Positions 1,029-19,388 of a DNA stretch of 21,722 nucleotides are shown piece after piece. Both the position numbers and the translations under genes were made by a program. The DNA comes from a virus, in the IMG/VR virus record IMGVR_UViG_3300036791_000321, positions 1-21,722 of that record, one strand, 5' to 3'. The notes below the pieces were generated by a model. That model searched no databases. It was not told where the DNA came from and was given only the letters and a program-made list of their open reading frames with translations. The first letter of the stretch is position 1; every line of letters begins with the position of its first letter.

Positions 1029-1601
1029 CTAGCACGACGACTTACCGGGCACCGGCAGGCCAGCCGAGCGGATGACGGTCATGCAGCGGTCGCGGTTCAG
1101 GCGCAGATCGAGCAGCGGATAGGTCACGAGCTCCCAGGCTCGGGGTTGCGCCCGCTCGACGCGGTGCGCCTCGTCCGTCGAGAACCCGATCGCCACCGTG
1201 GCCGGATGCTCGGGCGTGGCGCCGTGGTCCTTGTGCCACTTGGCCATCACTTCGAGCTTGTAGGTGATCGTGCACCCACGGTTACCGGGCGCGCCGTTGG
1301 ACATGCGAACGGGGATCGGCAGACTCATCGACTCGGGCCGGGTCAGACGGTCGAGCAGACTCTCGGGGCCCTTATGGGCGCCGCGCACCCGAACCTTGTG
1401 CAGCTCGACCACCTCGATGCCGTTGGTGGCGGCGTAGGGCATGGCGACCTCGCGGACATAGCGCAGCGTGTCGGGGTGCTCGGCGTCCTCGCCCACGTTG
1501 CAGAACAGGGCCACGTCGAAGTCGATGCGACCCGTGGCGGCCAGCACGAGCATCGCCGTGGACTGGACGCCGCCGCCGTAGCTGATGGTGCGAAGGGTCA
1601 T
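1029..1601 (-). CDS. PAPS reductase-like adenine nucleotide alpha-hydrolase (truncated by amber codon)
   Basis: The 190-residue product has the N-terminal ATP-binding loop SYGGGVQSTAML (7-18), a variant of the SGGxDS PP-loop of ATP pyrophosphatases and PAPS reductases. It also has a 'FCNVGEDAEHPDTLRYV' segment and 'PVRMSNGAPGNRGCTITYKL' typical of the phage branch of the family. The frame stops at TAG 1031-1029 directly after 'PVPGKSSC', where relatives continue with an aromatic residue and FCP; the sequence after the stop continues that motif in frame. The family transfers sulfur or activates substrates with ATP; the phage members have no settled substrate. A role in nucleic-acid modification is possible given the adjacent methyltransferase. 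Start ATG 1601 overlaps the preceding stop as ATGA. Confidence 0.75.
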   Translation of the reverse strand: MTLRTISYGGGVQSTAMLVLAATGRIDFDVALFCNVGEDAEHPDTLRYVREVAMPYAATNGIEVVELHKVRVRGAHKGPESLLDRLTRPESMSLPIPVRMSNGAPGNRGCTITYKLEVMAKWHKDHGATPEHPATVAIGFSTDEAHRVERAQPRAWELVTYPLLDLRLNRDRCMTVIRSAGLPVPGKSSC

Positions 1602-1687
1602 CGGTGTTTGTCGCCGTACTTGGTCAGCACGTACCCGATCGCCGTGATGGCGACACCGATAGCGATGACGGCGACGATGAATGTCAT
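1598..1687 (-). CDS. 29-residue single-pass membrane peptide
   Basis: A very short ORF lies between the methyltransferase and PAPS-reductase-like genes. It begins with ATG 1687, which overlaps the methyltransferase stop (ATGA), and ends with TGA 1600-1598, which overlaps the next start (ATGA). The peptide is one hydrophobic helix (MTFIVAVIAIGVAITAI) followed by GYVLTKYGDKHR, a basic cytoplasmic-type tail. Four-base overlaps at both ends, the same as at neighbouring junctions, are the main evidence that it is translated. Function unknown; small phage membrane peptides can act in lysis control or superinfection exclusion, but nothing here decides this. Confidence 0.6.
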   Translation of the reverse strand: MTFIVAVIAIGVAITAIGYVLTKYGDKHR

Positions 1688-2571
1688 GTCGACCACCCAG
1701 CCGGGGACGCGGCGGATCGTACCGTTGCAGACATTGGTTCACCTCCCACGTGTGCGGGCCGTGTCCCCGGCTCGATGCTCACAAGGTGGGCCATCAGCTG
1801 CCGTCCGACCCACTCGGCGACCTGCGGGACGACGGCGTTACCGAGACACCGCAGTCGGTCCACCCGGTCGGAAACCCCATCAGCCACTCGACCCACGTCG
1901 GGTTCAACGGTCCACCAACTGCCGTCTGCAACCCATCGCCACTCTTCGCCGACAGGTCGGCTCGATTCGTGTTCCCATGCCTCGTCGGCGTCGGCCACAG
2001 CCCCGTCTTCGCCATTGTCTCCAAAGACGGTCGCACGGGCCCGACGCGGCCCGCTGCGCCGCCCTGGTTCGATCCGTAGCTGACAGCGCTCGGCGTGGGC
2101 CACGGCGAACAATCGCCATCGGAGGTGAGGCGCACCGAGGGCGGCCGCTGGTATGCACGTCCATTCGACGTCATACCCGATCGAGGCCAGATCGGCGAGC
2201 ACTCCATCCCAGCCAAGTGAAAGGTGCCCTGGGACGTTCTCCAGCAGTGCGTGGCCGGGTCGTAGTCGGCGAAGGGCGTCAGCGAAGTAGGGCCAGAGGT
2301 GCCGAGGATCGCTGTCACCTTGTCGGCCTCCGGCGAGGCTGAAGGGCTGGCAGGGGTACCCACCGGCCACAACGTCAACTGGTCCCACGTCATCAGGTAG
2401 TTCTCTCACGTCCTCGTAACAGGGCAGACCGGGCCAATGGCGGGCCAGCACCCGGCGGCAGTAGGGGTCGAGCTCGCACTGCCAGCGGACATCGAACCCG
2501 GCCCGTTCCAGGCCGAGGTCGATACCGCCGATGCCGGTGAACAGCGAGCCGACGGTCGGAGCACTGGTCAT
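1684..2571 (-). CDS. DNA (cytosine-5) methyltransferase
   Basis: A 295-residue C5 cytosine methyltransferase with the ordered motifs: I, SLFTGIGGIDLGLERAGF (9-26, AdoMet binding); IV, GYPCQPFS with catalytic Cys74; VI, ENV (111-113); VIII, GAPHLRWRLF (146-155); a short target-recognition region (about 158-220); and X, LGNAVVPQVAEWVG (243-256). It methylates cytosine in a sequence context that cannot be read from the protein. No cognate restriction enzyme is seen, so it is an orphan phage enzyme, probably for protection from host restriction or for regulation. Start ATG 2571 and the stop both lie in ATGA overlaps. The last about 35 residues are non-conserved. A second ORF runs inside it in the +1 frame (1794-2393). 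Confidence 0.92.
   Translation of the reverse strand: MTSAPTVGSLFTGIGGIDLGLERAGFDVRWQCELDPYCRRVLARHWPGLPCYEDVRELPDDVGPVDVVAGGYPCQPFSLAGGRQGDSDPRHLWPYFADALRRLRPGHALLENVPGHLSLGWDGVLADLASIGYDVEWTCIPAAALGAPHLRWRLFAVAHAERCQLRIEPGRRSGPRRARATVFGDNGEDGAVADADEAWEHESSRPVGEEWRWVADGSWWTVEPDVGRVADGVSDRVDRLRCLGNAVVPQVAEWVGRQLMAHLVSIEPGTRPAHVGGEPMSATVRSAASPAGWST
1794..2393 (-). CDS. Nested ORF in the +1 frame of the methyltransferase gene
   Basis: A 199-codon ORF lies wholly inside the methyltransferase gene, shifted by +1. Its translation is not random. It contains WPRSGMT (69-75) followed by 'NGRAYQRPPSVRLTSDG', two WPTP motifs (98-101 and 133-136) and LNPTWVEWLMGFPTGWTD (163-180). These are the hallmarks, in the same order, of a widespread protein family that I know from phages and bacteria and that is usually annotated as hypothetical. 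The motifs map onto bases encoding conserved methyltransferase segments. It may be a genuine overprinted gene, or the whole family may be a conserved shadow of methyltransferase genes. ATG 2393 has no clear ribosome binding site, so translation is unproven. Confidence 0.35.
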   Translation of the reverse strand: MTWDQLTLWPVGTPASPSASPEADKVTAILGTSGPTSLTPFADYDPATHCWRTSQGTFHLAGMECSPIWPRSGMTSNGRAYQRPPSVRLTSDGDCSPWPTPSAVSYGSNQGGAAGRVGPVRPSLETMAKTGLWPTPTRHGNTNRADLSAKSGDGLQTAVGGPLNPTWVEWLMGFPTGWTDCGVSVTPSSRRSPSGSDGS

Positions 2572-5546: not shown

Positions 5547-5550
5547 GTGA
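5332..5550 (+). CDS. Uncertain small ORF ahead of integrase
   Basis: A 72-codon ORF starting MSTRTRNGCVHVVTIPP and ending FPAFSKPGRTL, rich in Arg and aromatic residues near its end. It has no recognised domain and no good ribosome binding site. Its only support is that its TGA overlaps the GTG start of the integrase as GTGA, the same junction type used throughout this genome. It covers the dif-like site, so it may simply be open by chance in a regulatory region. Confidence 0.2.
   Translation: MSTRTRNGCVHVVTIPPTAAPMNAPASPQVRRYCASIIWYTRNLPGARLWRFRDTWRHARFFPAFSKPGRTL
5429..5460. other. dif-like tyrosine recombinase core site, candidate attP
   Basis: Two 12-base arms, ATTGCGCGTCTA (5429-5440) and TATACGCGCAAT (5449-5460), are reverse complements at 11 of 12 positions and enclose an 8-base centre TCATCTGG. 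This is the geometry of core sites bound by XerC/D-like tyrosine recombinases. It lies 86 bases upstream of the integrase gene, a usual attP position. No host att site is in the window, so the assignment is inference. Confidence 0.45.
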
Positions 5551-6506
5551 GCGGTACCGGTACCCGCCGCAGTGCATCGAAGACGATGACGACCGCTGCT
5601 CGGGCCTCCGACTACCTGGGAGGGCGGCTGGCACGCGCCGAGATATCGGCGCGGTCGGCCACCCTGCACAGGTCCCGCCTCGTCACGCTGGTCGCCGTCT
5701 GTCCGAAGGTGACCGACCTCACCCGGGCGGGCATCGAGCGGTGGCTGGGTTCGCTCCAGGTGGCCGCCGCCAGCCGTCGGGCCTACCTGTCCACCGTAAA
5801 GGGTTTTACGGCGTGGCTGGTGGATGAGGGCGACCTGACGGCCGATCCCTGCGCCCGCGTGCCCCGGGTCCGCGAGCCGCGCCGGATGCCCCGGGCGCTG
5901 TCGCGGGCCCAGGTGCGGGCCCTCTTGGAGGTGCTGCCCGATGTCCGGGCCTGGGCGATCGTGATGCTCATGGTCGGCTGCGGGCTGCGGGCGGCCGAGG
6001 TCGGCGCGCTGGAGCTGGCCGACTGGGACCAGGGCCGCCAGACGTTGTTCATCCGGGGCAAGGGCGGCCACGAGCGCATGGTGCCCGTGCCCGACGAGGT
6101 CGGCGAGCACCTGGAGAAGCTGCTGACCGAACGGGGCTATGCCGCCGGTCCGCTCATCGTGGGACGGCGGCGCCAGTACGGGCAGCACCTAAGCCCGGCC
6201 GCCGTGTCCAACTACGTGTCGCGGTGGATGGCCGACGCCGGGATCAAGGCCGGGGCCTACGACGGGCGCTCGGGCCATGCGCTGCGCCACACCTGCGCCT
6301 CGGACGTCTTCGAGGCGTCCAAAGACCTGCGGACGGTGCAGGAGATGCTGGGCCACCAGCACCTGGCCACCACGGCCATCTACCTGCGCCACAGCGACCT
6401 GGACCGGATGCGGGCGGCCATGGCGGGCCGCGACTACACCAGCGACCCCGAGCCGACGCCACCGGCCGAGCCCACCCGGCGCGGCCACCTCCGGGTCGTG
6501 GCCTAG
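5547..6506 (+). CDS. int: Tyrosine recombinase (phage integrase, XerC/D-like)
   Basis: A 319-residue integrase with an N-terminal SAM-like core-binding domain (about 20-95) and the complete catalytic set: Arg148 in GCGLRAAEV, Lys172 in GKGGHERMVP, His244 and Arg247 in HALRHTCASD, His270 in MLGHQHL, and nucleophile Tyr279 in TTAIYLRHS. It integrates and, with helpers, excises the phage genome. The protein is compact and XerC/D-like, without a long arm-binding domain. GTG 5547 gives the longest form; ATG 5586 (MTTAARASDYLGG) is a good alternative. It is transcribed opposite to nearly all other genes, and its end converges on the lysis genes with several hairpins between. Confidence 0.93.
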   Translation: MSGTGTRRSASKTMTTAARASDYLGGRLARAEISARSATLHRSRLVTLVAVCPKVTDLTRAGIERWLGSLQVAAASRRAYLSTVKGFTAWLVDEGDLTADPCARVPRVREPRRMPRALSRAQVRALLEVLPDVRAWAIVMLMVGCGLRAAEVGALELADWDQGRQTLFIRGKGGHERMVPVPDEVGEHLEKLLTERGYAAGPLIVGRRRQYGQHLSPAAVSNYVSRWMADAGIKAGAYDGRSGHALRHTCASDVFEASKDLRTVQEMLGHQHLATTAIYLRHSDLDRMRAAMAGRDYTSDPEPTPPAEPTRRGHLRVVA

Positions 6507-6959: not shown

Positions 6960-7760
6960 TCAGGCCCGATCGGGGCGGCCCTTGTACGGCGCCGAGCCGT
7001 AGGCGAACACCGAGCCGTCGCTGATGAGCAGCCAGTAGCCGTCGTCGCCGTGACCGGCGATGCCGACGACCGACTGACCGGCCTGGATGCGGTCGTCGCC
7101 CGTCCCGTCATACGGCGACCCTTTGTTCTGGGCCGAGCCGAAGGCGTAGATGGCGCCGTCCTCGGTGGTCGTCCAGTAGCCCTGGCCGTCCTCGGTCGCT
7201 GCGATCATGGTGCGTCCCTTCCGTTGGGCTGGTGCGGGCCCGGCTGACCCGTGCACGGCCTGGGTAATGACCTGATCCATAGGGAAGCCGTCGCCACAGT
7301 CCCAGTGGCCGCCACCGGCCGCGCCGAGGTCGACGTGCTGGCAGACGCCCCGGCTGCGCCCGTCCTGGGCCTGGGTGGCGTTCAGCCGGACAATGGGAAT
7401 GCCGAACGCCGCCGCCTCCTCGGCGATCCACTTGGCGCAGTTGTCGAGCATGTTGGGATGCGCCGCCCACTCGGCGGGCGACCAGGCGGCGAAGCCGCAG
7501 AGCTCGATCTGGACGGCATACGGATTGGCGTCGGCCGCCGTCCATGCCTTCTGGTCACGCTTGACGTACTCGCCGACCGTGTTGACCTTGTCGTCGCTTC
7601 CGGTGTGGGAACTGACCTGGTTGGCCGGATTGGCGAACCACCCGCCGAGCGACTCGATCGTGGTCGAGCCCTCGGCCGTGTGCAGCACGATCAGCCGCAC
7701 CGCTGACCCGCCGCGGCTGGAGTAGCACGCCGTCGGCAGCCAGACGCGGTCGAGCGTCAC
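6960..7760 (-). CDS. Endolysin, N-acetylmuramoyl-L-alanine amidase with GYW repeats
   Basis: A 266-residue lysin. Residues about 20-170 form an Amidase_2/PGRP-type zinc amidase: VRLIVLHTAEGSTT with ligand His27, VQIELCGFAAWS, and GVCQHVDLG with His142, followed by 'HWDCGDGFPMDQVI' with the third ligand at Asp154/Cys155. It cleaves the bond between muramic acid and L-Ala in peptidoglycan. Residues about 185-262 hold two repeats (GYWTTTEDGAIYAFGSAQNKG and GYWLLISDGSVFAYGSAPYKG), which resemble surface repeats of Acidimicrobiia-type actinobacteria and probably replace a usual wall-binding domain. Start GTG 7760 overlaps the upstream stop as GTGA. Confidence 0.88.
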   Translation of the reverse strand: MTLDRVWLPTACYSSRGGSAVRLIVLHTAEGSTTIESLGGWFANPANQVSSHTGSDDKVNTVGEYVKRDQKAWTAADANPYAVQIELCGFAAWSPAEWAAHPNMLDNCAKWIAEEAAAFGIPIVRLNATQAQDGRSRGVCQHVDLGAAGGGHWDCGDGFPMDQVITQAVHGSAGPAPAQRKGRTMIAATEDGQGYWTTTEDGAIYAFGSAQNKGSPYDGTGDDRIQAGQSVVGIAGHGDDGYWLLISDGSVFAYGSAPYKGRPDRA

Positions 7761-7906
7761 GCCGCGCCGCCCTCGCTGTCGACGTCATCGTCGCGGCCCC
7801 AGGGCTCGGACGGCTCGGCGTCGGGCTCGGGGACCGGGTCGGGCGCCGGGACCTCGTCGTCGGGGCGTGCGTGCTGCGGCTCGTGGTCGGGTGTGGTGTC
7901 GGGCAT
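7757..7906 (-). CDS. Acidic, proline-rich 49-residue protein
   Basis: ATG 7906 follows a strong ribosome binding site (GAAGGAGA about 5 bases upstream). The peptide is Asp/Glu/Pro-rich (MPDTTPDHEPQHARPDDEVP, later DPVPEPDAEPSEPWGRDDDV) and looks disordered. Its stop overlaps the endolysin start as GTGA, so it probably couples to endolysin translation. No function can be read from the sequence. Confidence 0.65.
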   Translation of the reverse strand: MPDTTPDHEPQHARPDDEVPAPDPVPEPDAEPSEPWGRDDDVDSEGGAA

Positions 7907-7987
7907 GGGTGTCTCCTTCGCGTTCTCCCCGGTACCTGGGTCCGGGCGGGTCGTTTGCGGGGCTTAGATCGAAGCGTTGAGCAGGGC

Positions 7988-8341
7988 TTACGTGGGGCCG
8001 CCCGTGCCCGCCAGGCGGTTGCCCTCGGCGTCGAAGAACAGCCCGGCCATGGTCGGCCAGTCGGCCTGTACGGCGCTCAATATCTGGGCGTCCTCGATCA
8101 GCGCCGAATCGACGCCGCCGTGGCCGTCGTCAGCAGCATCGGCGAACCCGGGCGCCGCCGCCAGCATCCGCAGGAAGGACGCGCTGACCGGCCCGTCGCT
8201 GCGCAGCACCGCCGAGGCCAGCGCGGTGAACTGCGGGCGGGCGTCGTCCTTGAAGATGTCGGCCTGCTCGGTCTGCGCCGCCCGGGTTCGATTCTGGAAG
8301 TCGGGGTCGATCTCCAATAGCGACACGGTCAAATAGGTCAT
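7988..8341 (-). CDS. Hypothetical tail-region protein
   Basis: A 117-residue protein starting at ATG 8341 behind an excellent ribosome binding site (AAGGAGGA about 10 bases upstream), 20 bases after the receptor-binding protein stop. It looks mainly helical: 'LLEIDPDFQNRTRAAQTEQADIFKDDARPQFTALASAVLR', then an Asp-rich stretch 'GFADAADDGHGGVDSALIEDAQIL'. Similar small helical proteins often sit between tail tip and lysis genes in actinophages, but I recognise no named family. It may be a minor virion or chaperone protein. Confidence 0.65.
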   Translation of the reverse strand: MTYLTVSLLEIDPDFQNRTRAAQTEQADIFKDDARPQFTALASAVLRSDGPVSASFLRMLAAAPGFADAADDGHGGVDSALIEDAQILSAVQADWPTMAGLFFDAEGNRLAGTGGPT

Positions 8342-8360
8342 CGTGGATTGTCCTCCTTGG

Positions 8361-9362
8361 TCAGGTCCCGGCGCCCAGGTAACTGGCGGTGGCGTAGGTC
8401 CACGTACCGGAGGCGACGCCACCCAGGGCCGTCGAGCCCACCTGCAGGGTGTAGCGCCGGTCGCCCGCGTTGAGAAAAGTGGTCTGCACACAGACGGCCG
8501 TCATCGTGGTGCCGACGCCGGAGTGGTTGGTCGAGCCCGCCTCGGGCGTGGTGCCGTTGGTGCCCAGCACGGCCTGCACCCACTGCCCGGCGCCGCTGGC
8601 CGAGGCCGAGAGGATGACCACGAACTGCCACCAACCGGCGACGGGGGCGGTAAAAAAGCCGTTCGTGGTGTCATAGACGGCGTAGTCGTCTCTCGTGACG
8701 GCGTTCATCACGAGCGGGACATAGCCCGCGGTGTTTAGCGTCCAGGCCGACGAGCGGAAGACCCGGGACCGCAGTACCGAGGTGGCCTTACGGTAGAGGC
8801 CGCCGTTGACGCCGCCCTTGGCCACCCAGACCTCGCCGTTGCTATCGGTGAAGCTGGCGAACGGTGCCCCGGCGCCGAGCGGCGGCGGAATGTTCAGGCC
8901 GAGCATCTTGCGCCGGTCGGTCACCTGGGCCGGGGTGATCCAGTTTTGGCCGCCGGTCACGAGGATCGAGGCAATGGCCAGGCTGTTGACCGGCGTGGCC
9001 GGTACGGCGCCGTTGACGACCCCGGCGATGGCGGTGAAGACGAAGTCGTCGTTGGTCCCGGCGTCGACGGTCGAGTCGCGCACGGTGGCCACGATCAGGT
9101 CGTTACGGTTCGACCCCGACACCGGCGGCTGGGTCAGCGTCACCGGCTCGACGCCGTCGGAGCTGATCAGCGCCGTGGTCCCGTCGGTCAACGGCACGAC
9201 GGCATTACCGGCCGACATCTTGATCACCAACGTGGTCGAGTCGGCGCTGGCCGCGAGGCCCTGGTTCACGCCGCCGGTCGGCCACATCATGTTGAGCAGC
9301 ACCCGGTCGAGGCTGGCCGGGTAGTGGTTCTTCTGCTGCCACAGCGGGGCATAGCGGGTCAT
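8361..9362 (-). CDS. Tail tip/receptor-binding protein with C1q-like C-terminal domain
   Basis: A 333-residue protein. The N-terminal about 160 residues match the baseplate-attachment part of actinophage minor tail proteins: 'YPASLDRVLLNMMWPTGGVNQGLAA', 'SGNAVVPLTDGTTA'-like strands, 'SGSNRNDLIVATVRDSTVDAGTNDD' and 'LAIASILVTGGQNWITPAQVTDRR'. After a linker, residues about 198-333 look like a C1q/TNF-type jelly roll: FFTAPVAGWWQFVVILSASA, 'VCVQTTFLNAGDRRYTLQVGST' and the terminal YATASYLGAGT. Such domains trimerise and bind the host surface. Start ATG 9362 has GGGAGGAC upstream. I infer that it is the receptor-binding protein. Confidence 0.75.
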   Translation of the reverse strand: MTRYAPLWQQKNHYPASLDRVLLNMMWPTGGVNQGLAASADSTTLVIKMSAGNAVVPLTDGTTALISSDGVEPVTLTQPPVSGSNRNDLIVATVRDSTVDAGTNDDFVFTAIAGVVNGAVPATPVNSLAIASILVTGGQNWITPAQVTDRRKMLGLNIPPPLGAGAPFASFTDSNGEVWVAKGGVNGGLYRKATSVLRSRVFRSSAWTLNTAGYVPLVMNAVTRDDYAVYDTTNGFFTAPVAGWWQFVVILSASASGAGQWVQAVLGTNGTTPEAGSTNHSGVGTTMTAVCVQTTFLNAGDRRYTLQVGSTALGGVASGTWTYATASYLGAGT

Positions 9363-9372
9363 GGCGTCCTCC

Positions 9373-10623
9373 CTAACGCCGGGCCAGGGCGGCGATCGAG
9401 CGACTGTGGGCCTGGAACATGTCGGCGAACTGGGTATCGGGCCGGGCCGTGGTGATGGCGAGGGCCTCGGAGCCGTCGTCGTCCACGTTGAATTCCATTT
9501 CGACCACCCGCACGGCGTCCTCCACGTGCAGGCGCCCCGAGTCGACCCGTATCTCGATGGTGTCGCCGATCCAGAAGTCGGCCCGGTTGCGCCAGCGGCC
9601 CGGGATGATGTTGAAGGTGAAGCTGGGGTCGGCCGTGCTGTGTATCTCCACCAGGCCGACGGCCGTCTCATCCAGCGAAGTCTGCAGGTTCGACTCGGGG
9701 TAGGACGCGGCAGTGTCCCAGTAGCCCTCGGGCCCGACGCTGGCGTCGGCCACCGACTTGGCCGAGAAGATCGGCACCGTGGTGGCCGGTTGCCCGGAGA
9801 CGTTCATCGGCGTTATCGAGGCGCCCGACACCCTGATGTAATTGGCGTAGTCGGACGTGGCGAAGGTGCGGGTCAGGCTGGTCACGGTCACGCCATACTC
9901 GGCGACGAACGGCTTGACCACGCCGCGGGTCGGGAACCAGACCCAGGCCACGCCGGGCTGGGCGTTGGCCAGCGGGTCGTTCGGCTCGACGCCCCACTCG
10001 AAGCCGCCGTCGCAGTTGCCGAGGGCGGTGATGTTGGCGTCGATCTGCTCGCCGCCGTAGACGATGCGCTGTCGCTGGGTCGCCGTGTCGGCGTCCGAGC
10101 GGTACGAGCTGTCCGGGTTCCGCACGCCGCCCCACGTCACGCCCATGTTGTGCTTGCCGGTCTGGGTCTGGTTGACGTTCAGCTTGACCATGTTGGCCTG
10201 GTCGATGGTGGCCGTGACGCCCAGCGCCGGGTCGTAGACCTGGCCCGGGGCGGCGATCACCCGGCGCCCGAACATGGCCCGGTAATCGGCGCAGTGCACG
10301 GTGACGGTGTGGACCGTCTCGGACAGCTGGTCTTCGATGCGGGCGATCGGGCCCCGGAAATAGCAGACGTAGACGAGGTTGACCGGGTCCCAGCGGTAGA
10401 CCACGACGTCTTGCACCAGTTCTTTGAGCTGGATGGCCTGCGGGCTGTTGCCGTCGATGACGAAGTCGAACGTGGCGGCGTCCCACAGGTACATATGCAG
10501 GTCCCGGCTGCGGACGTCGGGCAGGGTGGCCACCTGGCCGCCCGTCGGGTAACGGTTCCAGAGCTCGACGCGCCACCAGACGTTTGAGGGCGGGTCACTC
10601 GCGGCGAGCGGGGCGACGGTCAT
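9373..10623 (-). CDS. Minor tail/baseplate protein (ReqiPepy6 Gp37-like)
   Basis: A 416-residue protein of the actinophage minor-tail type. The start region 'WWRVELWNRYPTGGQVATL', 'FDFVIDGNSPQAIQLKELVQDVVVYRWDP' and 'IARIEDQLSETVHTVTVHCADYRAMFGRR' match the pattern of Siphovirus Gp37-like tail proteins, which form the hub below the distal tail protein. The C-terminal part ('FTFNIIPGRWRNRADFWIGDTIEIRVDSG', 'VRVVEMEFNVDDDGSEAL') resembles the galectin-like/hub end. Start ATG 10623 overlaps the distal tail gene stop as ATGA. Confidence 0.75.
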   Translation of the reverse strand: MTVAPLAASDPPSNVWWRVELWNRYPTGGQVATLPDVRSRDLHMYLWDAATFDFVIDGNSPQAIQLKELVQDVVVYRWDPVNLVYVCYFRGPIARIEDQLSETVHTVTVHCADYRAMFGRRVIAAPGQVYDPALGVTATIDQANMVKLNVNQTQTGKHNMGVTWGGVRNPDSSYRSDADTATQRQRIVYGGEQIDANITALGNCDGGFEWGVEPNDPLANAQPGVAWVWFPTRGVVKPFVAEYGVTVTSLTRTFATSDYANYIRVSGASITPMNVSGQPATTVPIFSAKSVADASVGPEGYWDTAASYPESNLQTSLDETAVGLVEIHSTADPSFTFNIIPGRWRNRADFWIGDTIEIRVDSGRLHVEDAVRVVEMEFNVDDDGSEALAITTARPDTQFADMFQAHSRSIAALARR

Positions 10624-11474
10624 ATCAGATACGGGTCGTTCCACGAGACGCCGAGGGCGGTGTTCGTGCCGATGCCGCTGGCCGACAGGGCCAGGGCCGT
10701 GGTCCCGCCCGGTGGGAAGCTGGGCCAGACCCCGGACGGGTGCCAGCCGCAGGCGCCGTAGGCGTCCAGCCCGTTCAGCGTCACGGTGCGGGCGTTGCAG
10801 TCGATCGAGAGCAGGTCCCCGGTGCCGAGCGCATAGCCCGACGCCAGGGCGATCTGGAACGACGAGGCGCCGACGACGATGGCCGACGCCGGGCCGTGCA
10901 CCCCGATCACCGGCCGGGCGGCCACGGTGCCGTCGTTCTCGGCCTGCAGGGTGTCGGTGGCGGCGCGCTGGGACGGCGGCGGGTACAGCCGGTCGAACGT
11001 GAGGTCGTAGGGCCGCCCGGCCAGCAGCGTCTTCTGGGTCGAGTCGTAGATCAGCGGGTCGGGCGCCTTCCAGGCGATCGAGAATGCCGACAGGCTCGGA
11101 TGGTTGAACGGGGCCGAGAAGGCCGACGCCCGGATGTTGACGTAGCGCAGCGGGACGTCGGTATCGGTCTGGACATAGAGGAAGTTTCGGGTCGCCGGGT
11201 CCAGGTACGGGGCGAAGGCGTCGAGGGCCTTGGAGCGCGAGCCCTTGGACGAGGGGACGACGCTGCCGACGATGCTGACCACCCGGGCCCCTCTGAACTT
11301 GGTGAAGTCGAGCAGGCCGTCGGCGTTGGCCCGGGGGTTGGCGTTCTCGCGGATGTCGGGGTAGCCCAGGTCGACCTGCTCGATCACGTAGCCCGCCGTC
11401 GGGTCCATGAGGTTCAACTGGGCGCCGCCGCTGCCCGTCTGCAGGTAGAGCATGACCGGGGAATTGCAGACCAT
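10620..11474 (-). CDS. Distal tail protein (Dit-like)
   Basis: A 284-residue protein directly after the tape measure gene, where the distal tail protein lies in siphoviruses. It has an N-terminal beta-rich half (LYLQTGSGGAQLNLMDPTAGY ... TKFRGARVVSIVGSVV ... YLDPATRNFLYVQTDTDVPLRYVNIRA), typical of tail-tube-like distal rings, and a C-terminal domain ('PVIGVHGPASAIVVGASSFQIAL', 'LLSIDCNARTVTLNGLDAYG') that looks like the outer carbohydrate-module-like part. Start ATG 11474 shares one base with the tape measure stop (TGATG). Confidence 0.75.
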   Translation of the reverse strand: MVCNSPVMLYLQTGSGGAQLNLMDPTAGYVIEQVDLGYPDIRENANPRANADGLLDFTKFRGARVVSIVGSVVPSSKGSRSKALDAFAPYLDPATRNFLYVQTDTDVPLRYVNIRASAFSAPFNHPSLSAFSIAWKAPDPLIYDSTQKTLLAGRPYDLTFDRLYPPPSQRAATDTLQAENDGTVAARPVIGVHGPASAIVVGASSFQIALASGYALGTGDLLSIDCNARTVTLNGLDAYGACGWHPSGVWPSFPPGGTTALALSASGIGTNTALGVSWNDPYLI

Positions 11475-13135
11475 CAGAACATTCCCGCCGAGACGGCAAA
11501 GGTGACTTTGCGGGTGAGGGCGTCGAGGTCCACGCCGCTGTTGAAGTTGGCCGTCTCGATGACCACGGCCGGGGCGCTGCGGCCCTTGCCGGTCGGCGTG
11601 CCGGTCGCCGCCCCCGTCGGGCTCGGCGGCGAGACGACGGCGGTGACCGCCTGGGTCACGTGGGCCGTCATGTCGGTCACGCCGAGGGCGAAGCCCTGCG
11701 CCGTCTGCTGGCCCAGGTCCCTGAAGACCTCGGACGGGCTGAAGATATGCAAGAACCCGGTGACGGCGTTCTTGGCCGCGCTGGCCACCCGCTTGGCCGC
11801 GTTGACCACGGCCCCGATCCCGTTCTCGATGCCGTGCACGAACCCGTCGATCAGGTCGCGCCCGGCGCCGAGCAGCCACGATCCGGCGTTGGAGAAAAAG
11901 CCGGTGATGTCGGACCAGACGCGCCGGGCGCCGTCGACTATGGCCTGCCAATGCTGGACCACCTCCCCGGCGGCGATGCCGATGGGCCCGGCGATGATCC
12001 CGAGCAGTAGCGGCCAGTAATTCTCGATCCAGTGAAAAACGTCCATCACGACGGACTTGACGAAGTCGAAGGCGGTCGTCATGGCGTCGCAGAGGCCCTT
12101 CCAGATGGACTGGAACCACGTCGTTTTGGTGGCGATGAGGACAATGGCGGCGACGAGGGCCACGATGGCCAGGATCACCAACACGATCGGGTCGGCGGCC
12201 ATCACGGCGTCGAAGGCGGCCTGGACGCCGGTCCACACCTTGGTGGCGGCTGACATCTCGTCCCCGGTCGACTTGAAGAAGCCGATGGCCGCGCTGGCGA
12301 TCTTCATGGTCGAGCCGACACCGGTCATCACGGCGCCGAACTTGGTGATGTCGGGCCCGTACTTGGTCCCGAAGGAGGCAAAGGCGTTCTCGGCCTTGGC
12401 CTTCAGGTCGGCCAGGTGACCGCTGAAGGTGTTCGCCGCGGCCGACGCTTGGCCCGACAGCACGTTCGCCAGGGCCTGGGTCGCCGTCTGGTTGTCGGCC
12501 GTCAGTTTGGTGTGTTTGTCGACCTCGATCCCGTATTCCTTCAGCAGCTTGGTGTTGCCGTTGTAGACCTTCCCGAGCTGGCCCGCCGCCGTCGAGAGGT
12601 CCTCGTGTTTCGCCGCGGCCAGGTCGGTCGCCGTCGACAGCAGTTTGAGGGCCTCGGCCGGGTCGTGGGTGGCCGTGGTCAGCTTGCGGAGGGCGTCCTG
12701 GGTCTGGGCCGACGTGTCGCCGAACTTGGTCTGGTGCTTGACCGCGGCGTCGATCTGGTCGGCGTACTGGGCGTAGCTGTTGCCCGTCGCCTTCACCGCC
12801 GCCTGCAGCTGGGCGTGGGCGCGCTGGTCGCTCGACGCCGCCGTCTGGAGGGCGATACCGGCGCCGAGGGCCACGGCACCCATACCCATGAGCACGGTCG
12901 AGGTCTCTTTGCCGTGCCCCGACAGTTGTTCCAGCGACTGCTGGGTCTGGTTGAGGGCGTCGCCGAACGGGCCGAGGACGCCGGTCGAGTTGAGCTGGTT
13001 CAGCACGCCCGAGAACGCCGCGTGCATCTTGGCCCCGGCACTCTGCCCGGCCGTCCCGGCGTCGGTGGCCGCCTTCGACAGTCCCGTGGTGTCGGTCAGG
13101 AACCGAAAGAGGATCGACGGGCCGGTACCGGCCAT
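11474..13135 (-). CDS. Tape measure protein
   Basis: A 553-residue, Ala-rich, mostly helical protein, the longest of the tail block, with a hydrophobic stretch 'DPIVLVILAIVALVAAIVLIATKTTWF' (about 318-344), a second 'YWPLLLGIIAGPIGIAAG' (about 383-400), and the late phage-TMP motif 'GFLHIFSPSEVFRDLGQQTAQGFALGV' near the C-terminus. It sets tail length and helps DNA entry. At about 0.15 nm per residue, a general rule, the tail would be about 80 nm, which is short. Start ATG 13135 shares one base with the stop of the -1-frame chaperone segment (TGATG). Confidence 0.92.
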   Translation of the reverse strand: MAGTGPSILFRFLTDTTGLSKAATDAGTAGQSAGAKMHAAFSGVLNQLNSTGVLGPFGDALNQTQQSLEQLSGHGKETSTVLMGMGAVALGAGIALQTAASSDQRAHAQLQAAVKATGNSYAQYADQIDAAVKHQTKFGDTSAQTQDALRKLTTATHDPAEALKLLSTATDLAAAKHEDLSTAAGQLGKVYNGNTKLLKEYGIEVDKHTKLTADNQTATQALANVLSGQASAAANTFSGHLADLKAKAENAFASFGTKYGPDITKFGAVMTGVGSTMKIASAAIGFFKSTGDEMSAATKVWTGVQAAFDAVMAADPIVLVILAIVALVAAIVLIATKTTWFQSIWKGLCDAMTTAFDFVKSVVMDVFHWIENYWPLLLGIIAGPIGIAAGEVVQHWQAIVDGARRVWSDITGFFSNAGSWLLGAGRDLIDGFVHGIENGIGAVVNAAKRVASAAKNAVTGFLHIFSPSEVFRDLGQQTAQGFALGVTDMTAHVTQAVTAVVSPPSPTGAATGTPTGKGRSAPAVVIETANFNSGVDLDALTRKVTFAVSAGMF

Positions 13136-13300
13136 CAGCGGGCCGCCTCGCGCTGGGCCCGCTTGACCGCGTCAGCGTCGGCCTGCATGAAGCGGACCAT
13201 CGCCGCCCAGACCTCGTCGCCCAGGTCGTCCACCTCGGCGGGCGTCAGCCGCCAGTAACGGCAGAAGGCAGCCATGGCGTCGGCCCACTGCCGCTCGTAG
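13135..13300 (-). CDS. Tail assembly chaperone, -1 frame C-terminal extension
   Basis: In the frame -1 to the upstream chaperone the sequence encodes 'YERQWADAMAAFCRYWRLTPAEVDDLGDEVWAAMVRFMQADADAVKRAQREAAR', a good match to the C-terminal part of tail assembly chaperones that precede tape measure genes. A -1 frame stop at about 13363 and the frame-0 stop at 13247 bracket the possible shift. GGACCCT (13305-13299) allows a tRNA at CCT to re-pair with CCC, but it is not a canonical heptamer. Independent initiation at ATG 13275 (46 residues) is the alternative. Confidence 0.6.
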
Positions 13301-13571
13301 GGTCCGCCGTCTCGACCTGGACCTCGCAGTCGTAGGCGTGCAGCCAGAGCGACGTCGGGTCACGGTCGGGGAAGTCGCGCAGCAGGGCCCGGAAGGCGAC
13401 GATACGGAACGGCTGGGACTGGACGAGCTCGGCGAAGGGCGTCGTCGGCTCGAGGCGGGCGATCTGGTCGAGGACACGCTGGGACGGCAGCCGGGCGGCG
13501 AAGGAGTCGGGGACGACCACCAGCGTCGGCAGCACGACATCGGCGCCGACCCCGTCGTAGACCTCGGTCAT
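13245..13571 (-). CDS. Tail assembly chaperone, frame-0 product
   Basis: A 108-residue protein between the major tail protein and tape measure genes, the fixed place of the G/GT-type chaperone pair. The fold part (to about residue 88) has 'DVVLPTLVVVPDSFAARLPSQRVLDQIARLEPTTPF' and 'RALLRDFPDRDPTSLWLHAYDCEV'. The end (TADPTSGSGPTPWLPSAVTGG) reads like the short frame-0 tail that is dropped when ribosomes shift to the -1 frame. It binds the tape measure during tail assembly. ATG 13571 overlaps the major tail stop as ATGA. Confidence 0.75.
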   Translation of the reverse strand: MTEVYDGVGADVVLPTLVVVPDSFAARLPSQRVLDQIARLEPTTPFAELVQSQPFRIVAFRALLRDFPDRDPTSLWLHAYDCEVQVETADPTSGSGPTPWLPSAVTGG

Positions 13572-14251
13572 GCCTTGCCCGCCACCCAGGCCGACCCGCT
13601 CCAGTGATTGGCCACGAGGTCGCCCGTGATGACGTACTGGCCGACGGCCCACGCCGCCGTCGGGGTGGCCGTGAGGCCGGTGAGGGCGGTCAGGTTGGCC
13701 GGGACGGTGGCGCCGGTCGGGGTGAAGTAGCCCGGCGATCCGGCCGTGGCCCCGGTGGCCGTCACCGCGCCGTTGTCGACCGACGGCGGGCCGGTCAGGT
13801 TCCAGTCGATGACGACCTCGGACGCCGCCCCGGCGTCGCCGCCCATCTGCATGAAGGGCTGGGGAATGGCGAGCCCGGAGATGATCGGGTTGGTGGCCGA
13901 GGCGACCCGCGACGAATAGGGCCGGGCCTTCCAGGCCACCGGGGTGCCGCTGGCCACGTAAGCCTGGTAGGCGGCTTGCAGCGTCTGGAACACCGACCCG
14001 GCCGTGAAGTCCTGGTAGAAGGTCACCCGCAGGTGCCACTTGGTGGCGCCCGGGTAGTCCGTCTCCGAGCAGAAGCTGGTGATGGTCACCAGCTTGTTCT
14101 CGGGGAACGCCGCCTCCAGGTGCTTGACCGTGCATCGCAGGTTCACGCCCATCAGTTCGAAATAGGCGTCGTTGAGGATCAGGGGGTTGGCGACGGGGGC
14201 GACCGGGTCGCCCACGGCCGTCAGCTCGGGGCTGTCCAGGGTGTCGGTCAT
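13568..14251 (-). CDS. Major tail (tube) protein
   Basis: A 227-residue protein just before the chaperone pair, the standard position of the tail tube subunit. It has the usual opening 'PLILNDAYFELMGVNLRCTVKHLEAAFPENKLVTITSFCSETDYPGATKWHLRVTFYQDF' (23-82), with the conserved 'G..KWHL..TFYQD' strand pair and a 'F.TLQAAYQAYVASGTPVAWKARPY' helix-strand. The C-terminal about 60 residues ('GYFTPTGATVPANLTALTGLTATPTAAWAVGQYVITGD') look like an added Ig-like or decoration segment. Start ATG 14251 has AGGCAGGA upstream, and the frame further upstream is out-of-frame sequence of the preceding gene. Confidence 0.85.
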   Translation of the reverse strand: MTDTLDSPELTAVGDPVAPVANPLILNDAYFELMGVNLRCTVKHLEAAFPENKLVTITSFCSETDYPGATKWHLRVTFYQDFTAGSVFQTLQAAYQAYVASGTPVAWKARPYSSRVASATNPIISGLAIPQPFMQMGGDAGAASEVVIDWNLTGPPSVDNGAVTATGATAGSPGYFTPTGATVPANLTALTGLTATPTAAWAVGQYVITGDLVANHWSGSAWVAGKA

Positions 14252-14274
14252 ATGGTTGTTCCTGCCTTTCGGTG

Positions 14275-14679
14275 TCATGTCGGGGTCGACCAGGGGTAAG
14301 AGGCGACGGTCTGTTCGGCCGTCTCGGCGGCGAGCGCGGCGAACTGGGGTTCGGCCGCGTGCATCGTCGGGTAGACGCTGCGGCCCTGCGGCACGTGGGC
14401 CCGGCCCCGGCTGCCGCCGAATTCGATCCAATAGGCGTAGGCCAGGCCCTCGCCCACCTGCACCCCGAACCCGCTGGCCGAGGTGTCGCCGTCGTGGACG
14501 ACCTGGGCCGTGGCGGCCAGCGCTCCGGTCGCCACGGGCTGCAGCTCGCGCACCTTCCCCTCGATCGAGGCGGCCAGGCCCTGGGCCTTGCGGGAGATGG
14601 CCGGGGCGAGCTGGGCGGCGTAGCGGGCGACGTCCTCGGCCGCCCGGGCGCCGCCGATGACCTCGACGCCCGACGTCAC
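14275..14679 (-). CDS. HK97 gp10-like tail completion/minor tail protein
   Basis: A 134-residue protein with the typical pattern of HK97-gp10-like proteins: an N-terminal helical half ('AAEDVARYAAQLAPAISRKAQGLAASIEGKVRELQ'), then 'PVATGALAATAQVV' and 'FGVQVGEGLAYAYWIEFGGSRG' (the G.L and YA..EFG signatures), ending with a helix 'AEPQFAALAAETAEQTVASY'. It works at head-tail joining or tail completion. Start GTG 14679 is set by the GTGA overlap with the previous gene, with GGAAG just upstream. Confidence 0.8.
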   Translation of the reverse strand: MTSGVEVIGGARAAEDVARYAAQLAPAISRKAQGLAASIEGKVRELQPVATGALAATAQVVHDGDTSASGFGVQVGEGLAYAYWIEFGGSRGRAHVPQGRSVYPTMHAAEPQFAALAAETAEQTVASYPWSTPT

Positions 14680-15101
14680 ATCATCACTTCCAGCGCCACC
14701 TCGGCCACGAGCACGTCGACCCCGGCGACGCGCAGCGCCCGCCAGTTGCGCTCGGCCCCGGCCACCAGCGACTTGCACGTCCCGCCCAGCGTCGGGTCGG
14801 GCCCGATGGCTGACCGGACGAACCCGATGAGGCCGTCCACGATGTCGTCGCCGTCGATCGGCCCCACGCACAACACCCCGAAGTCGGCCATATCGACCCC
14901 GAAGGCGGCCTCGGAGTAGCGCACCTCGGTCGGGCGGCCGATGACCACGGCGGGCGGGTTCACGGTCGAGGGCGGGCGCTCGAAGATCGTCGGCGGGCCC
15001 GCCACGTAGTCGTCGGGGTCGACCGGCGTCCCGGGCGGCCACGGCGCCGTCGACAGCAGGTCGTACAGCGCCTTACAGAAGTCGGCCCGGTGCCACGTCA
15101 T
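14676..15101 (-). CDS. Tail terminator-like protein
   Basis: A 141-residue protein with the layout of siphovirus tail terminators: a first helix 'FCKALYDLLSTAPWP', the strand 'NPPAVVIGRPTEVRYSEAAFGVDMADFGVLCVGPIDGDD', a helix 'IVDGLIGFVRSAIGPDPTLGG', and the last strands 'RNWRALRVAGVDVLVAEVALEVMM'. It would cap the tail tube on the head side. Its neighbours are the head-tail adaptor (ATGA overlap) and the gp10-like protein (GTGA overlap). I see no separate stopper gene, so this protein could also cover part of that role. Confidence 0.7.
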   Translation of the reverse strand: MTWHRADFCKALYDLLSTAPWPPGTPVDPDDYVAGPPTIFERPPSTVNPPAVVIGRPTEVRYSEAAFGVDMADFGVLCVGPIDGDDIVDGLIGFVRSAIGPDPTLGGTCKSLVAGAERNWRALRVAGVDVLVAEVALEVMM

Positions 15102-15472
15102 CCGAAGACCAGCGGGGCGTACAGGGCATAGCCACGATCGATGTCGGGGTCGCGGCCCGACACCCGCACCACGCCGCCGTCGGTCACGCCCAGCGTCCCG
15201 TCGAGTGAGTCGCGACGACGGTAGAGCTTTCCGGCGTGCTGGAGACAGGCGTAGTGGCAGGCGTCGGGCAGCGTCTGGGTGGTCGAGGGATAGATCGGCT
15301 CGGTCGCCGGGCCGAAGGTCCCGTCGCCGTTGTCGACCAGCTGCGTCCCGAGCACGTTGACGCCGTAGTCGATGGCGGCATCGAGAGCCGCCTGGATGAC
15401 GGCGTCTTCGGTCGGGTTCACCTCCATGCGGAGATACGACCGCACCTCCTTCAGCGCGGGCCAGGCCGCCAT
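15098..15472 (-). CDS. Head-tail connector/adaptor (gp6-like)
   Basis: A 124-residue protein resembling HK97 gp6-type adaptors: 'WPALKEVRSYLRMEVNPTEDAVIQAALDAAIDYGVNVLG' (4-42, helix pair), then 'LPDACHYACLQHAGKLYRRRDSLDGTLGV', the typical helix that ends before a flexible loop and C-terminal strand. It attaches to the portal and starts the neck. ATG 15472 comes one base after the stop of the IPT-domain gene. Confidence 0.8.
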   Translation of the reverse strand: MAAWPALKEVRSYLRMEVNPTEDAVIQAALDAAIDYGVNVLGTQLVDNGDGTFGPATEPIYPSTTQTLPDACHYACLQHAGKLYRRRDSLDGTLGVTDGGVVRVSGRDPDIDRGYALYAPLVFG

Positions 15473-15473
15473 A

Positions 15474-15884
15474 TCAGGCGTAGGTGAACTGCTCGGCCGC
15501 GGTGACGTTGCCGCGGGGGTTGAGCACGACGACGGCGACCGCTCCGGCGGCGTGGGCCGGGGTGATGCAGGTGATCGTGGCGTCGGCGTTGACCAGGAAC
15601 CCGGTCGCCGCCGTGCCGCCCACGGTGACGCCGGTCGACCCGATCAGGCCCGAGCCGCGAATGGTCAGGCCCGTGCCACCGCCCACGGGGCCACCGGTCG
15701 GGGTGATCGAGTCGACCTCGGGCGCGGCGGCCAGGGACGCCCACTGGTCCTTACGGACGGCCAGGGTGTTGGCGGGATACCAGTGCCAACTCCCCGGCAG
15801 TGCCAAGACTGCCGGGAAGTCAGTCACCGGGGCCGACGAGGTCGCGGCACCCCACGATCCCATGGGCTTGATCGCCCAGGTCAC
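15474..15884 (-). CDS. IPT/TIG-domain protein, possible capsid decoration
   Basis: A 136-residue protein starting at GTG 15884 in a GTGA overlap with the capsid stop. Residues about 55-135 form one IPT/TIG (Ig-like) domain: 'PEVDSITPTGGPVGGGTGLTIRGSGLIGSTGVTVGGTAATGFLVNADATITCITPAHAAGAVAVVVLNPRG' followed by a terminal FTYA strand. The first about 54 residues (WAIKPMGSWGAATS, SWHWYPANTLAVRKDQWASLA) are short and aromatic, perhaps a capsid-binding anchor. Ig-like domains on phage capsids often decorate the head or bind surfaces, and the position right after the capsid gene supports that. This is inference. Confidence 0.7.
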   Translation of the reverse strand: MTWAIKPMGSWGAATSSAPVTDFPAVLALPGSWHWYPANTLAVRKDQWASLAAAPEVDSITPTGGPVGGGTGLTIRGSGLIGSTGVTVGGTAATGFLVNADATITCITPAHAAGAVAVVVLNPRGNVTAAEQFTYA

Positions 15885-17263
15885 TTGGAGCTCGCCGCAG
15901 CCTTGCCGCCGTTGCCGCCGTTGGCCGGGGCGTCCTCTTCGGCCGGGGCCTCGCCGTTGACCTCGGCCAGCGTCGGCATCCCGGCCGGTGGCGTCAGCGG
16001 GATGAACGCCGGAGCGGCGAGGGACCCGAAGGCGACGTAACCGCCGTAGGCGACCTGGACGCCGAGGATCGACGGCTCGATGACCGACAGCAGCCCGATC
16101 ACCTCCTCGTAGACCTCGAAGAGGCCAGCCGGGCCGACGATGCACGTACCGGCCGGGAAGGTCGGCACGACGATCCGGGGCACGCCCAGGATGTCGCCCC
16201 GGAAGTCCATCAGCGAGGCGCCCCCGGCGTCCATGCTGTCCATGGCGTCGCCGCCGACGGCGGTGTCGGGCGGGAACACGACCCGGGCCACGTCGACCAG
16301 CGAGCCGAGGGCGGCCCAGACGTCGAGGCTGCACCAGATGCGGTTGGGCATCATCAGGCCGCCCTGATAGCTGTGCATGGCCGCGGTGTACAGCGCCAGC
16401 GTCCAGCCCTTCAGGTCGTTCGTCGCCACCACGACCGGCGTCGCCGTGGCCGCCGTCTTGAAGGCGCCCGACGCCGCCGTCTCGGTCTGCACGGCGTAGA
16501 CGTTGGCCAGGTCGGTAACCAGGATGTCCCAGGCGCTGGGCGAGCTCCAATCGATGTCCTGACGGGAGATGTCCACGGTTCCGCCATAGGTGGCCTTGGC
16601 GAAGCTGACCGGGGACACGGTCATCTTCTGGGACGGCAGCTGGGTCTTCTCACCGGCACCCCCGGCCGGGACCTGCTGGCCGACGCTGACATGCGTCGTG
16701 ATCTTCGGCCGGGTGAAGGTGGCGCCCGGGATGCCGCCCAGCGCCTTGGCGCCACCGAGCGAGCTGACAAACGGACGGTTGGCGTCGATCAGGTTGACGA
16801 CGGTTCCGACGATCGGCGTCGGCAGGATGCCCGGCGTGTCGGTCGTCTTCTGGTCGGCCACGGCCCGGGTCTGGGCCAGGCGGGCCGCCGCCTGCTCGTC
16901 GGGCCGTCCGCGGTCGGTGATGCCGTAGGCCCGCAGGTAGTCCACGAGGAAGGCGCCCGGCGTCCGGTGGGCGGCGCGACCGTTCGCCCCGTCGATGCGC
17001 CGCGGCTCGGCGGGCAGCAGGTCGGGGCGCCCGCCCATGCCGATCTGGCGCGCCGTGTCGGCATGGGTGCCGCGCAGCGCCTCAAACTTCTCCAGCGGCT
17101 CGATCTGCTTGTCGATGTCGCCGATGCGCTCACGGGCCCGCTCCAGCAGGCCGCGCTCGGCGTCGGTCAGGTCACGGCCCTCGACCTCGGCGAGGATCGA
17201 GTCGATGGTGCTGATCTGCTGGGCCCGCTCGGTGAGCAGCGAGTCGAGAACGTAATTGGCCAC
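15881..17263 (-). CDS. Major capsid protein (HK97 fold)
   Basis: A 460-residue HK97-type capsid protein. Residues 1-65 are a heptad-rich helix ('LLTERAQQISTIDSILAEVEGRDLTDAERGLLERARERIGDIDKQIEPLEKFEAL'), the delta scaffold domain that the upstream protease should remove. The mature part starts around 95-140 and has 'GILPTPIVGTVVNLIDANRPFVSSLGGAKALGGIPGATFTRPKITTHVSVGQQ', 'TYGGTVDISRQDIDWSSPSAWDILVTDLANVYA' and 'RIVVPTFPAGTCIVGPAGLFEVYEE'. GTG 17263 follows GCGGAGG at good spacing. The C-terminal tail is Gly/Ala/Lys-rich. Confidence 0.92.
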   Translation of the reverse strand: MANYVLDSLLTERAQQISTIDSILAEVEGRDLTDAERGLLERARERIGDIDKQIEPLEKFEALRGTHADTARQIGMGGRPDLLPAEPRRIDGANGRAAHRTPGAFLVDYLRAYGITDRGRPDEQAAARLAQTRAVADQKTTDTPGILPTPIVGTVVNLIDANRPFVSSLGGAKALGGIPGATFTRPKITTHVSVGQQVPAGGAGEKTQLPSQKMTVSPVSFAKATYGGTVDISRQDIDWSSPSAWDILVTDLANVYAVQTETAASGAFKTAATATPVVVATNDLKGWTLALYTAAMHSYQGGLMMPNRIWCSLDVWAALGSLVDVARVVFPPDTAVGGDAMDSMDAGGASLMDFRGDILGVPRIVVPTFPAGTCIVGPAGLFEVYEEVIGLLSVIEPSILGVQVAYGGYVAFGSLAAPAFIPLTPPAGMPTLAEVNGEAPAEEDAPANGGNGGKAAASSK

Positions 17264-17401
17264 GGGTGGACCTCCGCAATAGGTGGATCAGGGGCGCACG
17301 ATGCTGGCGCTCAACTGTCCCGATGCGGTGGGCCCCGGATAGGGCGGGCTCGACACCCGGTCCCCGGTCCGGGCCCGGCCGTGGGGCGGGCTGGCCGCGG
17401 T
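17264..17401. other. Short non-coding gap between protease and capsid genes
   Basis: 138 bases without a convincing ORF on either strand; it contains the capsid ribosome binding site and a very GC-rich stretch (about 17350-17395) with self-complementary segments (CCCGG/CCGGG). Such a gap, otherwise rare in this tightly packed genome, could hold a promoter or processing site raising capsid expression. I see no clear -10/-35. Confidence 0.35.
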
Positions 17402-18037
17402 CTATGGCTGGCGTGAGCGTAACCGCTCGACCTCTTCGCGCCAAGCATCCACGGCCAGCGGGCGCTGGGTTGTCATGGCCGCCCGGGTCTGGATGTTGAA
17501 GGCCGAGCGCACCATGGCCACCTCGGCGTCCTCAAAGACGGGCGTCGGGGTCAGGGATACCTCGAGCAGGCGGGATTCTTGCCGGGTCACGCGGTCCTTG
17601 TGCTCGGGGCCGAGGTCGGGCGCCCACTCGGCGACGTAGGCCCAGTCGCTGCGGATCGGGGCGAAGCCGATAGACAGCCCGAAGAGGTCGCCGTGATCGA
17701 CGGCCCGGGCCACCTCCTGGGTTTCGGGCCGGTCGTTCAGGCGCCAGGTGCCCCACAGGCCGTCGTCGGTGTTCTCCCATTCCTCGACGTGGCCGAGCGG
17801 TAGTGAGCGGTTGTCGTGGGCCCACAGCAGGGGCAGCTTCTTACCGGCGCCGTTCTTGGTCGAGGTGGCCAGGCTGCCCCGGGCGTGGGATTCCATGAAC
17901 CAGCCGACGTCGGCCCAGCGCTCAAAGGGCACGGCGCGCCCGTTCAGTTCGCTGTAACGACCGGCCACCCGGTCGGCGCCGACCTCGGCCAGGGCCAGCG
18001 CCGAGCGGTACATGCGGGCTTCAGGTGCTTGGGGCAT
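17402..18037 (-). CDS. Prohead protease (HK97 gp4/U35 family)
   Basis: A 211-residue serine protease between portal and capsid. The catalytic His is probably H74 in LLWAHDNRSLPLGHVEEW, and the Ser is S122 in DLFGLSIGFAP. The conserved acidic strand is 'LLEVSLTPTPVFEDAEV' (E159). It should cleave the capsid delta domain during maturation. ATG 18037 overlaps the end of the portal gene by 17 bases. The N-terminal and C-terminal tails are likely cleaved off. Confidence 0.9.
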   Translation of the reverse strand: MPQAPEARMYRSALALAEVGADRVAGRYSELNGRAVPFERWADVGWFMESHARGSLATSTKNGAGKKLPLLWAHDNRSLPLGHVEEWENTDDGLWGTWRLNDRPETQEVARAVDHGDLFGLSIGFAPIRSDWAYVAEWAPDLGPEHKDRVTRQESRLLEVSLTPTPVFEDAEVAMVRSAFNIQTRAAMTTQRPLAVDAWREEVERLRSRQP

Positions 18038-19253: not shown

Positions 19254-19308
19254 CGAGCGCTAACGCTAGCAAGCAACCCGCGAGCAGCCTTGGGACACTG
19301 CTTCGCAC

Positions 19309-19337: not shown

Positions 19338-19338
19338 C

Positions 19339-19372: not shown

Positions 19373-19388
19373 AGTGAGGGGTGGGGGA

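Follow-up and report, generated by a model that had tools for sequence, protein, structure and literature searches.

The window analysed here is the whole of a 21.7-kb virus contig with a G+C content of 69.8%. A segment of its minus strand holds two overlapping genes (Table 1). The longer ORF, alpha, encodes a protein with the motifs of a C5-cytosine methyltransferase, and the shorter ORF, beta, begins 178 nt into alpha and is read in the +1 frame relative to it. A first-pass annotation of this DNA had reported the 199-codon nested ORF with its strand unstated; the ORF is present, and it lies on the minus strand. The annotation had also placed WPRSGMT, the second WPTP and the motif LNPTWVEWLMGFPTGWTD, just before motif X, over particular segments of the methyltransferase, and these placements were confirmed.

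The next gene downstream (1029-1742, minus strand) shares 59 bases with the 3' end of alpha and matches phrog_424, a PAPS-reductase-like phage family (9.7e-26), with PF01507 below the cut-off. The translations, read by eye, point to an integrase-like ORF at plus-strand positions 5547-6506 and to a block of siphophage structural genes, with terminase, portal, protease, capsid and tape measure, at 6960-21439 on the minus strand. Based on the integrase-like ORF and the structural block, the window looks like a temperate phage, probably an actinobacterial one.

Table 1. The overlapping alpha and beta genes and their motifs, in window coordinates
Feature	Position	Strand	Remarks
Alpha gene, C5-cytosine methyltransferase ORF, 295 aa	1684..2571	minus	motifs I-VIII and X, without IX
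Beta gene, nested ORF, 199 aa	1794..2393	minus	ATG start; relative frame +1 of alpha
ATG, putative internal start of beta	2391..2393	minus	upstream GTGAGAGAACTACCTG, weak Shine-Dalgarno-like GAGAG only
Alpha motif I region (LFTGIGG)	2524..2544	minus	from alignment with M.HaeIII
Alpha motif IV, catalytic Cys (YPCQPFS)	2338..2358	minus	overlapped by N-terminal part of beta
Alpha motif VI (ENVPG)	2227..2241	minus
Alpha motif VIII region (APHLRWRLF)	2107..2133	minus	from alignment with M.HaeIII
Beta WPRSGMT motif	2169..2189	minus	over alpha LASIGYDV
Beta WPTP repeat 1 (WPTPSAV)	2082..2102	minus
Beta WPTP repeat 2 (WPTPTRH)	1977..1997	minus	over alpha VADADEAW
Alpha residues 163-237, predicted unfolded, near-neutral	1861..2085	minus	beta frame constrained; probable target-recognition region of beta
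Beta motif IX-like stretch LNPTWVEWLMGFPTGWTD	1854..1907	minus	over alpha VEPDVGRVADGVSDRVDRL; just ahead of alpha motif X
Alpha motif X (LGNAVVPQ)	1822..1845	minus	helix predicted with high confidence

The alpha and beta proteins

Alpha matches phrog_363 (6.4e-76) and PF00145 (3.4e-35), but the latter match covers only positions 3-166 of the 324 in the profile. The protein aligns with M.HaeIII and M.HhaI, and motifs I, IV (PCQ), VI (ENV), VIII and X are all present. Its alignment with canonical C5 methyltransferases reaches motif VIII only, and matches to PDB sequences stop at residue ~163-167. In the AlphaFold model of alpha, residues 1-160 and the motif X helix (residues 238-266) are predicted with confidence and the part in between is unfolded, with a pLDDT of ~47 for residues 163-237. 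The model matches M.HaeIII and M.HhaI, and the fold match to 1dct has an E value of 2.4e-14. PADLOC returned only generic methyltransferase models for alpha. Since the alignment ends at motif VIII and the model is unfolded beyond it up to the motif X helix, alpha is without motif IX and without a folded small domain; the two features that together in one chain mark a single-chain C5 methyltransferase were not found in alpha. Judged by its alignments and predicted model, alpha is the catalytic part of a C5-cytosine DNA methyltransferase that is without motif IX.

Beta matches phrog_1008 with an E value of 6.6e-31, the best stretch being residues 4-150 of 199, and has weak matches to phrog_26627, 31772, 27243 and 10223, mostly at LNPTWVEWLMGFPTGW. 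No Pfam or NCBIfam family scored above the cut-off, and a sequence search against solved structures gave nothing beyond short matches that were kelch-like or due to chance. When beta was modelled by itself with AlphaFold from 59 sequences, the pLDDT was 63 and the pTM 0.31, which is too poor for a fold search. One stretch of beta aligns with canonical motif IX with an E value of 8e-6 when relatives whose beta also holds motif X are included. Without these relatives the E value is 0.036, compared to 0.21 or worse for 30 shuffles, and the match is weak (hhalign probability 1.4%), yet it falls at the right place. Going by these alignments, beta carries a motif IX-like stretch, LNPTWVEWLMGFPTGWT, that is missing from alpha. 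Relatives differ in how many WPTP-like copies beta has, from 1 to 6. These varying repeats, found at 1977-2102 in the window and in homologous loci, could be recognition modules.

Conservation of the nested frame

A long open frame inside a GC-rich gene may be a shadow, that is, a frame that stays open and looks conserved only because of the methyltransferase amino acids and the codon usage. For the window gene alone, codon permutations that keep the methyltransferase protein gave a mean of 2.3 stops in the +1 frame and a probability of 0.055 for zero stops. The open +1 frame in this one GC-rich gene is therefore borderline when taken alone, and the N-terminal part of beta overlies the highly conserved motifs IV-VIII, which also speaks for a shadow. 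The beta motif was never regenerated by permutation; the best of 5,000 permutations recovered 13 of its 18 residues.

The counts from relatives are of a different order. For 75 nonredundant methyltransferases that were found via the nested ORF, 7 stops were observed in the +1 frame versus 281 +/- 13 expected. An unbiased set was built to remove the ascertainment bias: 80 viral loci were fetched with a query limited to the first 56 residues of the methyltransferase, which lie upstream of the nested ORF, and 57 nonredundant genes were used for the stop counts. In the nested region of these genes 18 stops were observed in the +1 frame versus 261 +/- 10.5 expected by codon permutation. The +1 frame outside the nested region had 280 stops versus 228 expected, and the +2 frame had 574 versus 575. 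Nearly all of the complete loci among the 80 selected by their N-terminus have a +1 nested ORF. Canonical methyltransferases do not have this effect. PF00145 was used to pick 30 methyltransferase loci from 22 genomes, which were chosen for holding a nested match so that the counts are not population frequencies. The canonical genes among these loci have 2-28 stops in the +1 frame and no full nested ORF, and the alpha-type genes have 0 stops and a nested ORF. The nested ORF is thus a conserved overlapping gene, far beyond chance across relatives.

Selection was followed in both frames using 44 independent pairs of related genes, with each difference classed by whether it is synonymous in the one frame and in the other. 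This is a simplified version of published overlapping-gene tests, and the confidence intervals were obtained by bootstrapping pairs. The dNN/dNS of the +1 frame is 0.67 (0.61-0.75) inside the nested region versus 0.95 outside, dSN/dSS is 0.50 versus 0.85, and the divergence at 4-fold sites decreases from 0.389 outside to 0.235 inside. Region-wise omegas, defined as dNN/dSN for alpha and dNN/dNS for beta, were calculated from 30 pairs. In motifs I-III omega is 0.32 for alpha and 1.02 for beta. In motifs IV-VIII the values are 0.31 and 0.74 (0.65-0.84), respectively, and in the variable region they are 1.06 (0.99-1.14) and 0.77 (0.68-0.86). In the motif IX stretch alpha has an omega of 1.18 and beta one of 0.15 (0.10-0.20), and at motif X the values return to 0.33 for alpha and 0.86 for beta. 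These omegas indicate that alpha is the functional protein as far as motif VIII, that beta takes over across the variable region and LNPxWVEWLMGFPxGWT, and that alpha is functional again at motif X. Residue conservation in the motif IX stretch follows the same pattern, as the Glu of beta is conserved at 0.98 versus 0.77 for the overlying Arg of alpha, and the Met at 0.95 versus 0.40 for Asp. Over LNPTWVEWLMGFP it is the nested frame that is conserved, and EPDVGRVADG of the long frame is closer to being the shadow. The variable region of beta with its WPTP repeats is probably the target-recognition region, a placement drawn from selection and predicted disorder alone.

The reading of the nested frame as a shadow of the methyltransferase was rejected on the basis of codon permutation and of the region-wise, frame-specific substitution rates. 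With 18 stops where 261 were expected, a +1 frame that is constrained inside the nested region and not outside, motif residues that are better conserved in +1 than in frame 0, and canonical methyltransferases that do not share the effect, it is extremely improbable.

Distribution of the pair and of motifs IX and X

The nested ORF family is present in 152 phage records by tblastn. Pattern scans found at least 594 relatives in viral sequences, together with 352 stretches in genomes of bacteria and archaea from many phyla. All 248 family profile matches in the fetched loci overlap a methyltransferase; 246 of these matches are strictly +1 and the other 2 are additionally in frame with motif X of the methyltransferase. 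A nested match, in some cases partial, was also found in 19 of 20 further bacterial loci chosen for a PF00145 match that ends early, mostly near position 165. An overlapping arrangement of this kind, which looks rare, is very common in phages and bacteria.

Free-standing members of the family were searched for in viral contigs, a genome collection, phages and plasmids, with inspection of the best-matching loci, and none was found among 229 motif-bearing ORFs, barring 5 that are cut by contig ends. One frame call gave locus L055 as single-chain; the motif count did not put it in that class. As refuting its reading the annotation had named a lack of stop depletion or constraint in the +1 frame across methyltransferase homologs, together with a lack of independent, non-overlapping family members. 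Depletion and constraint are both present, and independent members were not found. Their lack does not refute the gene, since the overlap itself is conserved.

The family was claimed to be widespread and poorly annotated. This was borne out, but the role of the nested protein as the missing piece, a candidate motif IX subunit, had been overlooked. In Paenibacillus phage Redbud the annotators had already labelled REDBUD_51 as 'g50 internal gene', and the annotation of Winget-type phages treats the two ORFs as distinct genes that overlap over a short length. In other phage records the methyltransferase frame alone is annotated, and gene callers choose one frame or the other. Two records (L081 and L084; MW202476 and PP395640) have an annotation only in the nested frame, with the methyltransferase frame absent. 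In Mycobacterium phage Modragons (L277) the annotation of the methyltransferase region (1742-2435) gives two hypothetical proteins on the opposite strand, and the alpha and beta pieces are scattered over three frames; this locus is probably decayed or misannotated. At L072:2502-3873 the alpha and beta profiles both change frame in the middle of the gene, as after an indel, so that either the sequencing is in error or the gene was broken recently. Given that gene finders report one frame only in several records, the half that is likely to set specificity is probably missing from the annotation of many methyltransferases of phages and prophages.

The positions of motifs IX and X were scored across relatives. 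In 199 nonredundant pairs motif IX is in beta only and motif X is in alpha only. Both motifs are in beta in 4 nonredundant pairs and both are in alpha in 3, and a duplicated IX or X was not found among the scored pairs. In about 30 more pairs X is in alpha, and the motif in beta is too divergent for the strict pattern; most of the 14 divergent pairs that were inspected have a degenerate yet recognisable motif, and a few (L081, L111 and L112) have none. In L123, L129, L276 and L328 the +1 ORF continues from the IX stretch into motif X, and alpha stops after VIII. In L339 the motif, and in L348 a similar one, lies in the long frame directly before motif X, in the classical order (LNPAFVEWMQGVEPGWVT and LAPAFVEWLQGLEPGWVT, respectively), and L345 has a similar IX-like motif in the long frame beside X. 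At L345:257-1303 and L348:218-1291 (reverse-complement) a long WPTP-rich +1 ORF is kept though IX and X are in the long frame, and this would be a third way of splitting the enzyme between frames. We hold with moderate confidence that this is a very widespread and old overlapping pair, and that a large methyltransferase family of phages and bacteria has its catalytic subunit in one frame and its motif IX and target-recognition subunit in the other. On this reading IX and X changed frames in different lineages, with one copy of each kept per enzyme, and specificity would evolve in the nested frame, where the long frame would encode no more than a linker.

A search of the literature outside subscription journals and REBASE found no description of the nested family, of its abundance or of the frame switching. 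The kind of arrangement is known; its wide occurrence and the passage of motifs from one frame to the other look new.

Expression, proposed enzyme and known systems

Among 225 genes, 157 have an internal ATG upstream of motif IV that is open into beta, versus 77 +/- 6 expected, and 65 have such an ATG with a Shine-Dalgarno sequence versus 12 +/- 3 expected. The enrichment of the internal ATG and of the Shine-Dalgarno sequence makes independent initiation of beta likelier than frameshifting. Beta is probably translated independently from an internal start, with the Shine-Dalgarno sequence of the window itself being weak. The first-pass annotation had left a choice between one segment encoding two proteins and a whole family that is an out-of-frame shadow. 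The former is supported, and the latter does not agree with the stop depletion, the +1 selection and the internal starts with Shine-Dalgarno sequences.

Programmed frameshifting would produce a single-chain enzyme if ribosomes moved from frame 0 to +1 after motif VIII and back to frame 0 before motif X. Selection does leave frame 0 after VIII and return to it at X, as such a double shift predicts. However, two shifts are required, and the beta frame is already under selection in motifs IV-VIII, ahead of the hand-over, where a shift would leave beta unread. The enriched internal starts, the two separate genes annotated in Winget-type phages and the biochemical precedent of M.EcoHK31I, which consists of two polypeptides, also argue against it, and frameshifting is considered very improbable. 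It may also be asked whether beta is an independent overprinted protein, for example a regulator, an inhibitor or an anti-restriction factor, that has only its gene in common with the methyltransferase. The lack of a known fold or family for beta fits this, as does the listing of phrog_26627 and phrog_27243 as of unknown function. Against it, no free-standing member was found among the 229 motif ORFs (the 5 contig-end cuts and the L055 frame call aside). Moreover, alpha is without exactly the motif that beta carries, and in relatives that motif adjoins X (L123, L129, L276 and L328) or sits in the catalytic chain (L339, L345 and L348). An independent role for beta is highly improbable.

The locus very probably encodes a two-subunit C5 methyltransferase in which alpha, with motifs I-VIII and X, and beta, with motif IX and probably target recognition, are overprinted on one DNA segment, built like M.EcoHK31I. 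In this two-subunit enzyme alpha would provide S-adenosylmethionine binding, the PCQ catalytic loop with its cysteine and ENV, followed by a loose linker and the motif X helix. Beta would complete the small domain with motif IX and would probably read the target site via its WPTP-containing variable region. A heterodimer of alpha and beta would form one active enzyme, which most likely shields the phage DNA from host restriction.

This arrangement would explain the many phage C5 methyltransferases that are seemingly without a recognition domain and motif IX, and alpha cloned alone would be expected to be an inactive enzyme. It also gives a testable function to PHROG families that are labelled as unknown or loosely as 'DNA methyltransferase'. 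The pair is an unusually clear natural case of selection passing between overlapping frames and could serve as a benchmark for overlapping-gene detection.

Among the closest known systems is M.EcoHK31I from E. coli (YGGCCR), in which, like in the window, the large subunit has motifs I-VIII and X and the small one has IX; the two are likened by motif layout and not by sequence. Lee, Kam and Shaw reportedly described in 1995 that the small polypeptide of M.EcoHK31I is read from another frame within the gene for the large one, and the two polypeptides are said to be 309 and 176 aa, compared to 295 and 199 aa in the window. M.EcoHK31I is a restriction-modification enzyme of known specificity, whereas the enzyme in the window belongs to a phage and no endonuclease was recognised next to it. 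It has been reported that the larger polypeptide of M.EcoHK31I carries motifs I-VIII and X, that only motif IX is on the smaller one, and that the TRD is predicted in the larger subunit (PMC3404938). In the window the constrained variable region is in beta, the small subunit, so the placement of target recognition in beta may be wrong or may differ from M.EcoHK31I. M.AquI is naturally split after motif VIII, and IX and X are on the smaller polypeptide (PMC3404938). L123, L129, L276 and L328 resemble M.AquI in having IX and X on the smaller chain; unlike M.AquI, the window has motif X in alpha and beta is fully nested. REDBUD_51 of Paenibacillus phage Redbud has the same nesting as the window, and no function is given there. 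Of the families matched by beta, phrog_1008 is labelled as a DNA methyltransferase and phrog_26627 and phrog_27243 as of unknown function, with no mechanism given in the entries. We propose that phrog_1008 and related families consist of motif IX subunits read in the +1 frame.
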